DNA of 64,000 nt, from positions 62,001 to 126,000 of the forward strand of contig NZ_JACXBU010000008.1 in NCBI RefSeq assembly GCF_014700075.1, written 5' to 3'. The position numbers and the translations under genes are program-made. This DNA comes from Pseudomonas sp. JM0905a. GTDB taxonomy: Bacteria; Pseudomonadota; Gammaproteobacteria; Pseudomonadales; Pseudomonadaceae. This document shows positions 8,042 through 47,585 of this stretch, piece after piece. Numbering within the stretch: position 1 is the first letter of the stretch; every line of letters starts with the position of its first letter. Below the pieces are notes generated by a model, which was not told the origin of the DNA, did no database searches, and worked only from the letters and a program-made list of their open reading frames with translations.

Positions 8042-9503
8042 GGGGCATCTCCTGGAGGCCACAGAGGTCAGCGAGCAGGCGTGTATCCAGATGCTGCTCC
8101 ACCTGGTCGGCCAGACGATCGATGTCACGCTCGCGCAGGGCGTGATAATCCACCGACTGCACGACGGAAAGTCCGGCCCAACGCAGGATGGCCGCCGCGG
8201 CGGCGGACGATTCGAACAGGCCGTGCAGGTAAGTGCCCATGACCTGGCCATCGGCACTTCGCGCGCCGTCGGCACGGTCATCGTCCAGCATCACGGCAGG
8301 ACGTTCCAGGCCCGCGCCGGTGGTGACGCCGGCATGGATCTCGTAGCCGCTCACTGCCGCGCCGTCCGGCAGCAGGCGGCCGCTGACGTTGCGCAGCTGC
8401 TTCTCCGGCTCCAGCACGGTATCCACGTCCAACAAGGCGAGACCCACGCTCTCCCCTGCCGGGCCTTCCAGGCCATGGGGGTCGGCGATGCTGCGGCCAA
8501 GCATCTGGTAGCCGCCGCAGATGCCCAGCACTTTGCCGCCGTAGCGCAGGTGGCGCTGCAGGGCCTGGTCCCAGCCGTGCTCACGCAGCCGCGTGAGGTC
8601 GGCGCGCACGCTCTTGGAGCCGGGCAGGATGATCAGGTCCGCCGGCGGAATGAGCTGGCCGGGGGCGACGAAGCTGAGTTGCACCTGCGGATGCAGGCGA
8701 AGGGGATCGAAGTCGGTGTGGTTGCTGATGCGCGGCAGCACCGGCACCGCCACCCGCAGCAGTTCGCCGGACTTGGCGGCCTGGCGCTGGTCGATGGCGT
8801 CCTCGGCTTCCAGGTGGAAGTCGGTGAGGTAGGGCAGCACGCCGAGCACCGGTTTTCCGGTGCGCTGTTCCAGCCAGTCCAGCCCCGGTTTGAGCAGGGC
8901 GATGTCGCCCCTGAAGCGGTTGATGACGAAACCCTTCACCCGCGCCTGCTCGCTTTCCGAGAGGAGTTCCAGGGTGCCCACCAGATGGGCGAAGACGCCG
9001 CCGCGGTCGATATCCGCCACCAGGATCACCGGGCAGTCCACCGCCTCGGCGAAGCCCATGTTGGCGATGTCGTTGGCCCGCAGGTTGATCTCCGCAGGTG
9101 AACCGGCGCCTTCGACCATGACCACGGAATACTGGCTGCAAAGGCGCTGGTGGGACTCCAGCACCGCCGCCATCGCGACCTTCTTGTAGTCGTGGTAGGC
9201 AACGGCATTCATGCTGGTGACAGCGCGGCCATGGATGATCACCTGGGCGCCGATATCCGTATTGGGCTTGAGCAGCACCGGGTTCATGTCGGTATGCGGC
9301 GCCAATCCGCAAGCCTGGGCCTGCACCGCCTGGGCGCGACCAATCTCGCCACCGTCAGCGGTCACCGCGCTGTTCAGCGCCATGTTCTGCGGCTTGAAGG
9401 GCGCCACCGCCACACCCTCGCGCTTGAGCCAGCGGCACAGCGCCGTCACCAGGGTGCTCTTGCCGGCGTCGGAGGTGGTGCCCTGCACCATCAGGGTGGT
9501 CAT
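8034..9503 (-). CDS. cobQ: Cobyric acid synthase, glutamine-hydrolysing
   Basis: A 489-residue two-domain amidotransferase. The N-terminal domain begins [22 protein letters not shown], a deviant P-loop of the dethiobiotin-synthetase type, and contains [22 protein letters not shown]. The C-terminal class I-like glutaminase domain has [11 protein letters not shown] with the nucleophilic Cys and [10 protein letters not shown] with the His. It amidates side chains b, d, e and g of adenosylcobyrinic acid a,c-diamide. It sits in mid-operon and overlaps cobU and the threonine-phosphate decarboxylase gene. Confidence 0.97.
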
Positions 9504-15895: not shown

Positions 15896-15969
15896 GGTTG
15901 GATCTCCGTCGTGCCACCCGCGCGACATCTCAGTGGGTACTGCATGCGGATCGATCCGCGATGCCCTGT

Positions 15970-16150
15970 GTGCGACAGGCCGGTCTCCGGGCTTGCGAGT
16001 GGAGCGATGCGCTCCTGTGCCGCGCCTTCCCATGCTGGAGCACAGTGGCCGATTGCGGCATTCGACTCGCCTACCGTTGCGGGGGCAGCGCCGGAATCTT
16101 CGTAAGAATGGACCGGCTTCCCTGTTTCACCCCGTAGGCCAAAGCCAAGG
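15970..16150 (-). promoter_or_regulatory. Cobalamin (AdoCbl) riboswitch before btuB
   Basis: Read on the minus strand the leader shows, in order, GGTGAAACAGGGAAGCCGGTC (about 16111-16131, read in two pieces), GATTCCGGCGCTGCCCCCGC then AACGGTAGGCGAG (about 16070-16100), GCCACTGTGCTCC, and a B12-box-like GCCCGGAGACCGGCCTGTC (about 15974-15993). These are the conserved blocks of the cobalamin riboswitch in the right order and spacing. It lies about 75 bases before the btuB start. High AdoCbl should shut down btuB and the coupled operon. Confidence 0.95.
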
Positions 16151-16241
16151 GGCACCTGAGGCAGCGGCGAAGGTTAGAGGGTCGGAGGATGAGCGTCAAA
16201 CTCGACGGATCGAGCGAACCCTGCAGCCTGCGCTGAAGCCC

Positions 16242-42938: not shown

Positions 42939-42975
42939 CGTGGCTAGCTTGGATGCTATCTACGCTCAGGCTCCC

Positions 42976-43005
42976 GTAGGGTGGATGACGCTCTTTTCAT
43001 CCACC
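42976..43005. repeat. REP copy left of the transposase (type B)
   Basis: GTAGGGTGGATGACGCTCTT then TTCATCCACC: 30 bp, itself a hairpin (GGTGGATGA…TCATCCACC). The exact inverted copy lies at 43588-43617 on the other side of the transposase gene. Confidence 0.92.
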
Positions 43006-43033
43006 GCTCTACAGGACAACTCACGGAGGAGTG

Positions 43034-43567
43034 ATGTCCAACTACCGCCGTGCACGAATGCCGGGCGGCACGTACTTCTTTACCGTCAACCTGCGCGACC
43101 GCCGCGACAACCTGCTGGTGCGTGAAATCGACCTGCTGCGCAGCGTGGTCCGCTCAGTCAAACAACGTCACCCGTTCCATATCGATGCCTGGGTTGTGCT
43201 GCCCGAACATATGCACTGCCTCTGGACGCTGCCTCCCGGCGACATGGCATTTGCGAATCGTTGGAAGGCAATCAAATTCGCTTTCTCGAAACGCTTGTCG
43301 AATGCCGAATCACGCACGTACCGCGAACACGCCCGTGGTGAACGGGGAATCTGGCAGCGCCGCTATTGGGAACACCTGATTCGTGACGATTTCGATTACC
43401 AGCGGCACTTCGATTACATCCACTTCAATCCGGTCAAACATGGTCATGTGCAATGCGTGCGGGATTGGCCGTATTCGAGCTTTCACCGAGCGGTGCAGGA
43501 TGGGATATATCCGGTGGATTGGGCGGGGAATGCTTTGGAGAACGATGCGGGTAATTGGGGTGAATGA
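43034..43567 (+). CDS. REP-associated tyrosine transposase (RAYT)
   Basis: A 177-residue Y1 transposase of the IS200-like/RAYT class. It starts SNYRRARMPGGTYFFTVNLRDRR, carries the HUH-type metal motif in VVLPEHMHCLWTLPPGD, and the catalytic Tyr region in WEHLIRDDFDYQRHFDYIHF then NPVKHGHV. RAYTs bind and cut REP hairpins as single strands and are credited with spreading REPs. Both sides bear perfect 30-bp inverted REP copies, the expected layout. The ATG at 43034 follows GGAGGA by four bases. Confidence 0.93.
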   Translation: MSNYRRARMPGGTYFFTVNLRDRRDNLLVREIDLLRSVVRSVKQRHPFHIDAWVVLPEHMHCLWTLPPGDMAFANRWKAIKFAFSKRLSNAESRTYREHARGERGIWQRRYWEHLIRDDFDYQRHFDYIHFNPVKHGHVQCVRDWPYSSFHRAVQDGIYPVDWAGNALENDAGNWGE

Positions 43568-43587
43568 GCGTGGGATTGGCTCTGCTT

Positions 43588-43617
43588 GGTGGATGAAAAG
43601 AGCGTCATCCACCCTAC
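43588..43617. repeat. REP copy right of the transposase, inverted
   Basis: GGTGGATGAAAAGAGCGTCA then TCCACCCTAC, the exact reverse complement of 42976-43005. Confidence 0.92.
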
Positions 43618-43693
43618 GTGACTTCATGCCTCCCAATCAGCCAAATCCCACGCTGCAACTGCATTGCCGCTTCCCTGCTCCGCCCATAGCCTC

Positions 43694-43912
43694 TGTCCCC
43701 GGCGCCTAAGAAACGCTTACTCACCTAGCGGCCAGACCGCTCCCGAAAGCTCAGCGGCTTTTTTGTGCCTGCGGCATACTCGCGCCCGCACAAAACCTCT
43801 GTTCTGCCGGGAGTGGGCTAATACAAGACCCGAAAGGGAAATACGTCCGGCCCTCTAGGTGGGGTTTCTTAACTCCCGGCGCCACAGCCTTAAGAAAGCT
43901 GATTGAGACCTA
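43694..43912 (+). ncRNA. Structured 'ash'-like element before the BRO-N gene
   Basis: A block that I recognise as the sequence upstream of phage-island genes annotated as 'ash family protein'. Translated it gives GILAP…GLIQDPKGKYVRPSRWG FLTPGATA, but this frame opens after a TAA at about 43709 and has no ATG before its TAG near 43913. It can fold: a 9-bp perfect inverted repeat GCCGGGAGT / ACTCCCGGC (43806-43814 and 43872-43880) encloses a CCC-GAAA-GGG hairpin (43829-43838), and GCGG-CCAGA-CCGC lies at about 43729-43741. I favour a structured RNA or regulatory element over a protein. Confidence 0.6.
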
Positions 43913-43922
43913 GCAGAGGTAA

Positions 43923-44438
43923 ATGGATATGCCCGAGTTCCCCCAGTTTCACCCCGCTCCTCCCCCGCACGCCGAAGTCCTGATGCCCGCCACCTTCATT
44001 CGCCACAAGCGCCAGTTGCGCGCGGTGCTGCTGGATGAAGAGCCCTGGTTTTCCGCCAGCGACCTTGCCCGGTTGATCAACCACGCGCCGCTGCCCGAAC
44101 GGGTGTCGCGCAACCTGGATGAAGACCAGTTGCAGCACGTCTGGATGCGCAACAGCCATGGCGATTTCGAGCAGGAATTGCTGATCAGCGAGTCCGGCGT
44201 CTATGCCGTGCTGATCCTCTACTACCACCCGGAAAACCGCTGCATTCGCCAATGGATTACCCAGCAGGTGATACCGCGATTGCGGGAAGCGGAACGCTTC
44301 GACGGCAGAGGCCCTTACCGGGAAGTGATCCAATGGCAGGAGCGGAGCTTGGAAGTGCTGCACTGGCAGGGCAAGGCATGGCTGTATCTGGGCGATTGCC
44401 CGGACCTGCTCCAGCGCCCGCCGATTGTGATCGGCTGA
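43923..44438 (+). CDS. BRO-N domain protein (phage antirepressor-like)
   Basis: A 171-residue protein with a BRO-N/Bro domain over most of its length: FIRHKRQLRAVLLDEEPWFSASDLARLI, then LDEDQLQHVWMRN, LLISESGVYAVLILYYHPENR and IRQWITQQVIPRLRE. BRO-N domains bind DNA and are common in temperate phages as antirepressors. There is no C-terminal KilA-C or similar domain. No other phage gene is near, so this is a phage-derived single gene behind the structured element. The ATG at 43923 follows AGAGG; an alternative ATG is at 43929. Confidence 0.88.
   Translation: MDMPEFPQFHPAPPPHAEVLMPATFIRHKRQLRAVLLDEEPWFSASDLARLINHAPLPERVSRNLDEDQLQHVWMRNSHGDFEQELLISESGVYAVLILYYHPENRCIRQWITQQVIPRLREAERFDGRGPYREVIQWQERSLEVLHWQGKAWLYLGDCPDLLQRPPIVIG

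Positions 44439-46487: not shown

Positions 46488-47585
<1,098 letters not shown>

Follow-up and report, generated by a model that had tools for sequence, protein, structure and literature searches.

What is encoded by the conserved stretch in front of a BRO-N gene in Pseudomonas sp. JM0905a, and how might it act on that gene? The locus lies in a 64,000-nucleotide (nt) stretch of contig NZ_JACXBU010000008.1 (positions 62,001 to 126,000, forward strand), here called the window, whose own numbering is used throughout; the window lies on contig C42 of the host genome (label G000, 5.79 Mb). An earlier note, made from the sequence alone, had taken positions 43694-43922 for an undescribed leader RNA controlling the BRO-N gene, and not for a gene of the ash protein family. 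Sequence comparison leads us to a reading that we hold with a probability of about 85%: the locus would be a self-contained antisense unit of the C4/CI type, known from phages P1, P7 and P4, in which a small RNA (sRNA) of the sRNA-Xcc1 family, hereafter Xcc1, shuts off BRO-N through two complementary tags.

A known RNA family in front of BRO-N

Positions 43806-43888 match Rfam family RF02221, sRNA-Xcc1, over the full length of the model (positions 1-87 of 87), with 71.7 bits where the cut-off is 53 and an E-value of 4.7e-11 when the entire window was scanned. The RNA itself was thus already known as a family, and its inferred mode of action is the new part. All three structural elements described in the earlier note are present, namely the closing stem of 9 base pairs (bp; GCCGGGAGT at 43806-43814 with ACTCCCGGC at 43872-43880), the CCC-GAAA-GGG hairpin within 43828-43838 and, upstream, the GCGG/CCGC hairpin (AGCGGccagaCCGCT, 43727-43741). 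An alignment of 45 rows, in which a misplaced stretch of one locus (L043) is counted in, revealed two-sided, pair-keeping changes in 8 of the 11 predicted base pairs; among the aligned copies the core is conserved and the loop of hairpin 2 is highly variable. A minus-strand mir-933 match in 43600-44000 (16.5 bits against a cut-off of 100) was dismissed as chance.

Of 398 genomes sampled from the phylum, 40 have an RF02221 match above the cut-off, and the host genome holds a second copy (G000:C11:899045-899128), likewise 5′ of a BRO-N gene. In the records listed, which were 8 of 8 from phages, 1 of 1 from a plasmid and 20 of 40 from E. coli, no annotated feature lies beneath the Xcc1 match. For comparison, 116 copies, mostly above the cut-off, were taken from about 153 distinct places, about 37 mostly weak ones being left out; with 7 annotated records they make a first set of 123 copies, that is 117 distinct RNAs, 114 with full flanks, and 84 distinct hairpin-2 sequences.

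That the stretch encodes an ash-type protein instead is an idea to which we give almost no credence. It could draw on an open frame of 67 codons, and on a similar frame in the second genome copy that continues into BRO-N. The GLIQDPKGKYVRPSRWG frame is open over 43710-43913 after a TAA at 43707 and lacks an ATG, as the earlier note had read it, and GTG and TTG are absent as well. The note's identification of the translated string with the ash family did not survive: a search with the translated frame returned no family at E up to 1, neither PF10554 (Phage_ASH) nor any other Pfam or NCBIfam model. Across the 117 distinct copies, the frame is interrupted by a stop in 58 (the other two forward frames in 74 and 40), and 38 have no start codon in it. 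Synonymous bias in this frame, which the note had named in advance as the sign of a protein, was not seen, since the variable columns of an 18-sequence group are spread evenly over the codon positions (8/28, 7/28 and 7/27), with no excess at the third. The missing start, the lack of a family match and the lack of frame conservation led us to reject the protein reading; the complete RF02221 match, the paired changes and the absence of a coding signal bear out the earlier claim of a structured RNA.

The note's wider suspicion, that ash annotations are often wrong, found indirect support in one phage, P4 (L003). There a coding sequence (CDS) annotated as cI (8168-8584, minus strand) matches PF10554 at residues 22-85, and the C4/CI RNA of the phage (RF01695, 8420-8507) corresponds to about residues 26-55, overlapping that match; residues 85-132 match an Icd-like model. 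The ASH profile may in part model the translated sequence of an RNA gene.

Two tags that vary with the hairpin-2 loop

The unit is compact and runs from promoter-like hexamers through a leader and the Xcc1 RNA to the BRO-N gene, with the following features, all on the plus strand:

43664-43692, +, promoter-like hexamers inferred from sequence (TTGCCG 43664-43669, a 17-nt gap, TAGCCT 43687-43692)
43707-43714, +, tag a1 (TAAGAAAC), which complements the joining strand a′ of Xcc1
43722-43728, +, tag b1 (CACCTAG), which complements b′, the loop of Xcc1 hairpin 2; duplex between this region and Xcc1 predicted at -24.2 kcal/mol
43727-43764, +, two mutually exclusive hairpins read from the sequence: AGCGG-CCGCT at 43727-43741, and CCGCT-AGCGG with a T-run at 43737-43764, terminator-like
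43806-43888, +, sRNA-Xcc1 RNA (Rfam profile match)
43849-43866, +, Xcc1 hairpin 2, with the variable loop b′ CTAGGTG at 43855-43861
43864-43872, +, Xcc1 joining strand a′ (GTTTCTTAA), from sequence comparison with the tags
43890-43897, +, tag a2 (TTAAGAAA), by sequence complementarity to a′
43908-43913, +, tag b2 (ACCTAG), ending 1 nt before the Shine-Dalgarno sequence AGAGG (43915-43919); duplex between this region and Xcc1 predicted at -20.2 kcal/mol
43923-44438, +, BRO-N domain gene, 171 amino acids (PF02498 at 36.8 bits, cut-off 25.6)

The a1/b1 tag lies 84-99 nt upstream of Xcc1 and precedes the terminator-like hairpin, and the a2/b2 tag adjoins the BRO-N ribosome-binding site. Judged by its spacing from AGAGG, the ATG at 43929 is better placed and may be the true BRO-N start.

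If this complementarity matters, it should hold in copies whose loops differ, and the control throughout was the same comparison with RNAs or hairpins swapped in from other copies. Exact reverse-complement matches of at least 7 nt to hairpin 2 were present within 200 nt upstream in 99/123 copies and within 70 nt downstream in 64/122 (counts converted from fractions), as against 9.6% and 4.8% with swapped hairpins. The single strand that follows hairpin 2 has a match of its own immediately 5′ of every loop match, and the antiparallel order is correct. The resulting double match (a plus b, at least 12 nt) occurred upstream in 102 of 114 copies (swapped, 4.2%) and within 60 nt downstream in 70 of 114 (swapped, 1.7%). 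Counting each hairpin-2 sequence once gave 75/84 upstream and 46/84 downstream, with 3.1% and 1.3% after swapping and 2.6% in 307 windows taken from other parts of these loci. Loop matches of at least 7 nt (63/84 and 39/84) dropped to 5.2% and 4.5% when RNAs were swapped only among those of identical joining strand, a design that isolates the contribution of the loop.

Two further sets behaved alike. Among viral contigs, 124 pattern matches gave 98 distinct copies with full flanks, 83 of them with the upstream and 74 with the downstream match (swapped, 9.7% and 4.8%). A named-genome set of at least 117 stretches, its genomes partly shared with the first set, provided 104 copies, of which, among the matches listed, 96 matched upstream and 54 downstream (swapped, 13.3% and 6.0%). 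When 14 pattern loci were checked with Rfam, 12 reached the RF02221 cut-off and two (L141 and L175) stayed below it.

These data bear on an alternative that we consider improbable, in which Xcc1 would act in trans on many cellular (virulence) targets and would lie next to BRO-N by coincidence. The title of Chen et al. 2011, as cited, describes Xcc1 as trans-acting and as controlled by HrpG/HrpX. For the Xylella copies, 212 predicted targets are named in a section heading of PMC12189769 (cited here, like all papers given by PMC number, for excerpts of its text). Such a role is hard to square with a variable loop that tracks the tags in its own flanks, or with the rarity of the double tag: across the whole 5.79-Mb genome, both elements of the window's tag occur together at its own two sites and in the Xcc1 RNA itself, and nowhere else. 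The double tag of the second copy is likewise restricted to its own two sites and its RNA, and reversed-pattern controls gave 0.

The layout around the upstream tag is recurrent. In the units inspected, a1 typically sits in a small hairpin and is followed by b1, usually a CGG, and a hairpin with a terminal T-run; in 145/175 units, the hexamer most like a -10 box is located 16-21 nt upstream of a1. Of the 109 units in which b1 is confident, 86 have a run of five T at a distance of 15-50 nt beyond it, always preceded by a perfect stem of 4 bp or more; random windows have such a run in 4.3% of cases. The b1 tag of the window overlaps an arm of the 43727-43741 hairpin, the rival of the terminator-like one at 43737-43764, so that Xcc1, when paired with b1, could tip the balance towards termination.

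A C4/CI layout with another sequence

The excerpts of PMC4825925 and PMC5320573 describe the C4/CI mechanism as upstream and downstream pairing, early termination, coverage of the ribosome-binding site by b′, specificity through a′ and cutting by RNase P; for C4, release by this enzyme and repression in trans are known from PMC5320573. The C4/CI RNA of P4, the sole positive control in our tag comparison since the P1 region examined lacks the C4 gene of that phage, gave a1 7, b1 8, a2 7 and b2 9 nt in the same order. The window has both tags of this type, one upstream and one at the ribosome-binding site, the latter of 8 + 6 nt. Like C4 (P1/P7) and CI (P4), Xcc1 has, by its structure lines, a closing stem, two hairpins and a joining strand, along with a′ and b′ elements, and it lies next to antirepressor-type genes; like P4 CI run in the same comparison, it has a terminator-like element after the upstream tag. 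Unlike C4, it belongs to another sequence family, has another hairpin 1 and is also found 5′ of SymE genes.

The genes that follow Xcc1 fit this comparison. In 6 of the 7 annotated records, Xcc1 lies just 5′ of an antirepressor, BRO, AntA/AntB or KilA-N gene, and in one Moraxella phage of a hypothetical open reading frame (ORF). The next ORF, taken as the longest one starting within 130 nt, a rule that can choose the wrong ORF, was compared with Pfam for a selection from 299 distinct complete ones, with family counts that overlap within proteins and with many ORFs that had no match at all. The 67 from viral contigs matched KilA-N (15), P22_AR_C (14), Bro-N (12), pRha (10), AntA (9), P22_AR_N (6) and ORF6N (6); the 93 from the first set matched Bro-N (29), SymE (7), pRha (4), P22_AR_N (3), AntA (2) and KilA-N (2); and the 65 from named genomes, among the matches listed, Bro-N (15), pRha (3) and a few others. 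The downstream double match of the seven units with a SymE-type toxin gene reaches at least 12 nt in L050, L074, L085 and L115, 11 nt in L033, 10 nt in L092 and 7 nt in L078. These units fit the Xanthomonas Xcc1-symE integron cassettes in the excerpt of PMC12444791.

E. coli SymR is arranged on the opposite strand to its target. P22 sar RNA is given as an antisense silencer of an antirepressor (PMC12197685) and SymR as one of SymE (PMC12444791), in the excerpts of these papers, and Xcc1 would be an antisense silencer of the same two kinds of gene; unlike both, it lies upstream on the same strand as the gene and has two tag copies.

The host genome carries five C4 RNAs (RF01695) above the cut-off, of which the first four below were opened (L490-L493):

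C11:784756-784841, C4 RNA
C11:370032-370118, C4 RNA
C8:60534-60619, C4 RNA
C11:735342-735431, C4 RNA
C42:194596-194692, C4 RNA

Two of the four (L490 and L492) precede BRO-N paralogs that are 33-36% identical to the BRO-N of the window. With hairpin positions that are approximate, both tags were seen in L490 and L491, the a element only in L492 and mainly a downstream b match in L493. As C4 and Xcc1 both stand 5′ of BRO-N paralogs in one genome, two RNA classes appear to serve the same gene family. Related observations come from the excerpt of PMC10111431, which reports CI and seqA relatives in satellite Bro genes through the C4 and isrK profiles, and from that of the Rfam 15 paper, which enters RF02221 and RF02944 (c4-2) as separate families; our literature search found no paper on c4-2.

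Besides the title of Chen et al., several observations weigh against a C4/CI-type unit. The b2 tag of the window is 6 nt long only. The C4 model RF01695 does not match the window, and neither it nor RF03163 (c4-a1b1), RF02944 or RF01394 (isrK) was matched within 43600-44000 at E-values up to 10. No antirepressor family was recognised in many of the next ORFs, above all those of the genome and named sets. The upstream tag stands alone in 32 of the 84 distinct units and the downstream one in 3, and 6 units have neither tag. All 14 Xanthomonadaceae-type copies among the matches listed have an upstream tag of at least 12 nt and keep the terminator-like hairpin, and in none is the ribosome-binding site accompanied by a convincing tag; two of them reach 12 nt downstream, but inside the coding start, through GGAGG, which looks fortuitous. 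Such copies may act by early termination only. They are L249, L256, L271, L278, L285, L289, L292, L293, L301, L317, L318, L323, L329 and L345, and the next ORFs of L292 and L317 encode XAC0095 family proteins.

The many copies with an upstream tag alone, together with the terminator-like hairpin after b1 and the placement of tags and RNA on one strand within about 200 nt, would also suit an attenuator or leader switch in which the complementarity works within one transcript and no free RNA acts. We regard this as unlikely, given that Xcc1 was seen as an RNA of about 100 nt by Northern blot in X. campestris (excerpt of PMC2996969) and that its relative in P4 works as a processed RNA (excerpt of PMC4825925). 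The earlier proposal of a leader RNA stands in part: the position of the RNA allows control of BRO-N, but the family was already in Rfam, and the evidence favours an antisense RNA with two linked targets over a simple leader switch.

The sequence comparisons are best read as placing Xcc1 in a second class of C4/CI-type antisense RNA, distinct in sequence, which would repress antirepressors and sometimes SymE toxins, and not among general trans-acting virulence sRNAs. The comparisons establish the family of the RNA, a layout that recurs in P4, complementarity at both tags that varies in step between copies, the confinement of the double tags within this genome and the association with antirepressor and SymE genes; we infer what happens in the cell (pairing, repression, the termination switch, processing and the target on which BRO-N acts). 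The unit is ordered as putative promoter, tag 1 (a1b1), terminator-like hairpin, Xcc1, tag 2 (a2b2) at the ribosome-binding site and BRO-N. The leader transcript would be processed to release an Xcc1 RNA of about 83 nt, whose hairpin-2 loop and joining strand would pair with a2b2 and block BRO-N translation. In new transcripts, Xcc1 would pair with a1b1, freeing an arm of the terminator hairpin and ending transcription early. BRO-N, of the phage antirepressor type, would be off as long as Xcc1 is present.

Setting, mobility and meaning of the unit

On one side, the unit is bordered by ribonucleotide reductase genes, a DUF4062 gene and a Y1-transposase-like gene, and on the other by an unnamed ORF and a dioxygenase. 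It does not look like part of a prophage, because a Pfam scan of 9 flanking window proteins matched no phage family. Its extent was taken from comparison with 27 related units (loci of about 3 kb):

43636-44438, +, conserved unit, the approximate span over which 8/27 related units align with the window

In these eight (L002, L012, L014, L021, L024, L031, L062 and L073), the alignment is limited to about -180 to +635 around Xcc1 and the flanks are unrelated, so the unit moves as a compact block, by some route; the remaining units share longer stretches with the window, the transposase-like gene among them.

REP (repetitive extragenic palindromic)-associated transposases are flanked by similar stretches in opposite orientation. 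The Y1-transposase-like gene of the window (43031-43567, PF01797) has the same arrangement, with similar GTGGATGA...TCATCCAC stretches in opposite orientation in 42940-43625, and stretches of this region were also seen near several other Xcc1-BRO-N units. Elsewhere in the window are a cobalamin riboswitch (15961-16174, minus strand, 104.8 bits) and an ORF at 46488-47585 without a Pfam match, which opens with a long Gln-Glu repeat (46488-46560) that is possibly slippage-prone.

A broader picture, which we put forward tentatively and think rather doubtful as a whole, is that Xcc1 represents a second class of C4-type immunity RNA, widespread, in which the variable loop serves as a password. Solo chromosomal Xcc1-BRO-N units such as that of the window would then make up a small mobile system in which coexisting copies tend to differ in password and which controls resident prophages through BRO-N and silences in trans the antirepressors of incoming phages bearing the same tag; the reported virulence role of sRNA-Xcc1 would be a by-product. 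Two of 67 within-genome copy pairs share at least 6 nt of password, and in the genus of the window sharing is 0/15 within genomes versus 47/310 between them (permutation P 0.086), so that a difference between coexisting copies is suggestive only. A search of viral contigs for the window's password gave at least 120 stretches; of the 120 examined, 9 passed a loose filter, none of these has an Xcc1-like RNA, and they look like chance.

Xcc1 was discovered in X. campestris by cDNA cloning and Northern blot (about 100 nt, mapped at 88 nt; PMC2996969) and has since been considered in connection with virulence, vesicles or integrons (PMC12189769, PMC12444791, PMC8780938). The excerpts of these four papers describe neither pairing with tags in its own flanks nor a link to antirepressors, and a search that left out most subscription papers found none containing both "sRNA-Xcc1" and "antirepressor". 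PMC12189769 was the only paper found that names both "C4 antisense RNA" and "Xcc1", as separate table entries in its excerpt; the priority of reading Xcc1 as a C4-type RNA is not certain.

So far, then, sRNA-Xcc1 has mainly been a plant-pathogen RNA of unclear purpose, and the comparisons made here strongly support a newly inferred mechanism for it. If Xcc1 is a C4-type antisense RNA, the predictions of virulence and vesicle targets need to be re-read, and RF02221 would be placed functionally beside C4. Every copy would bring with it a predicted pairing that can be tested by point mutants, and the regulation of symE behind Xcc1 in the Xanthomonas integron cassettes (excerpt of PMC12444791) would become directly testable.
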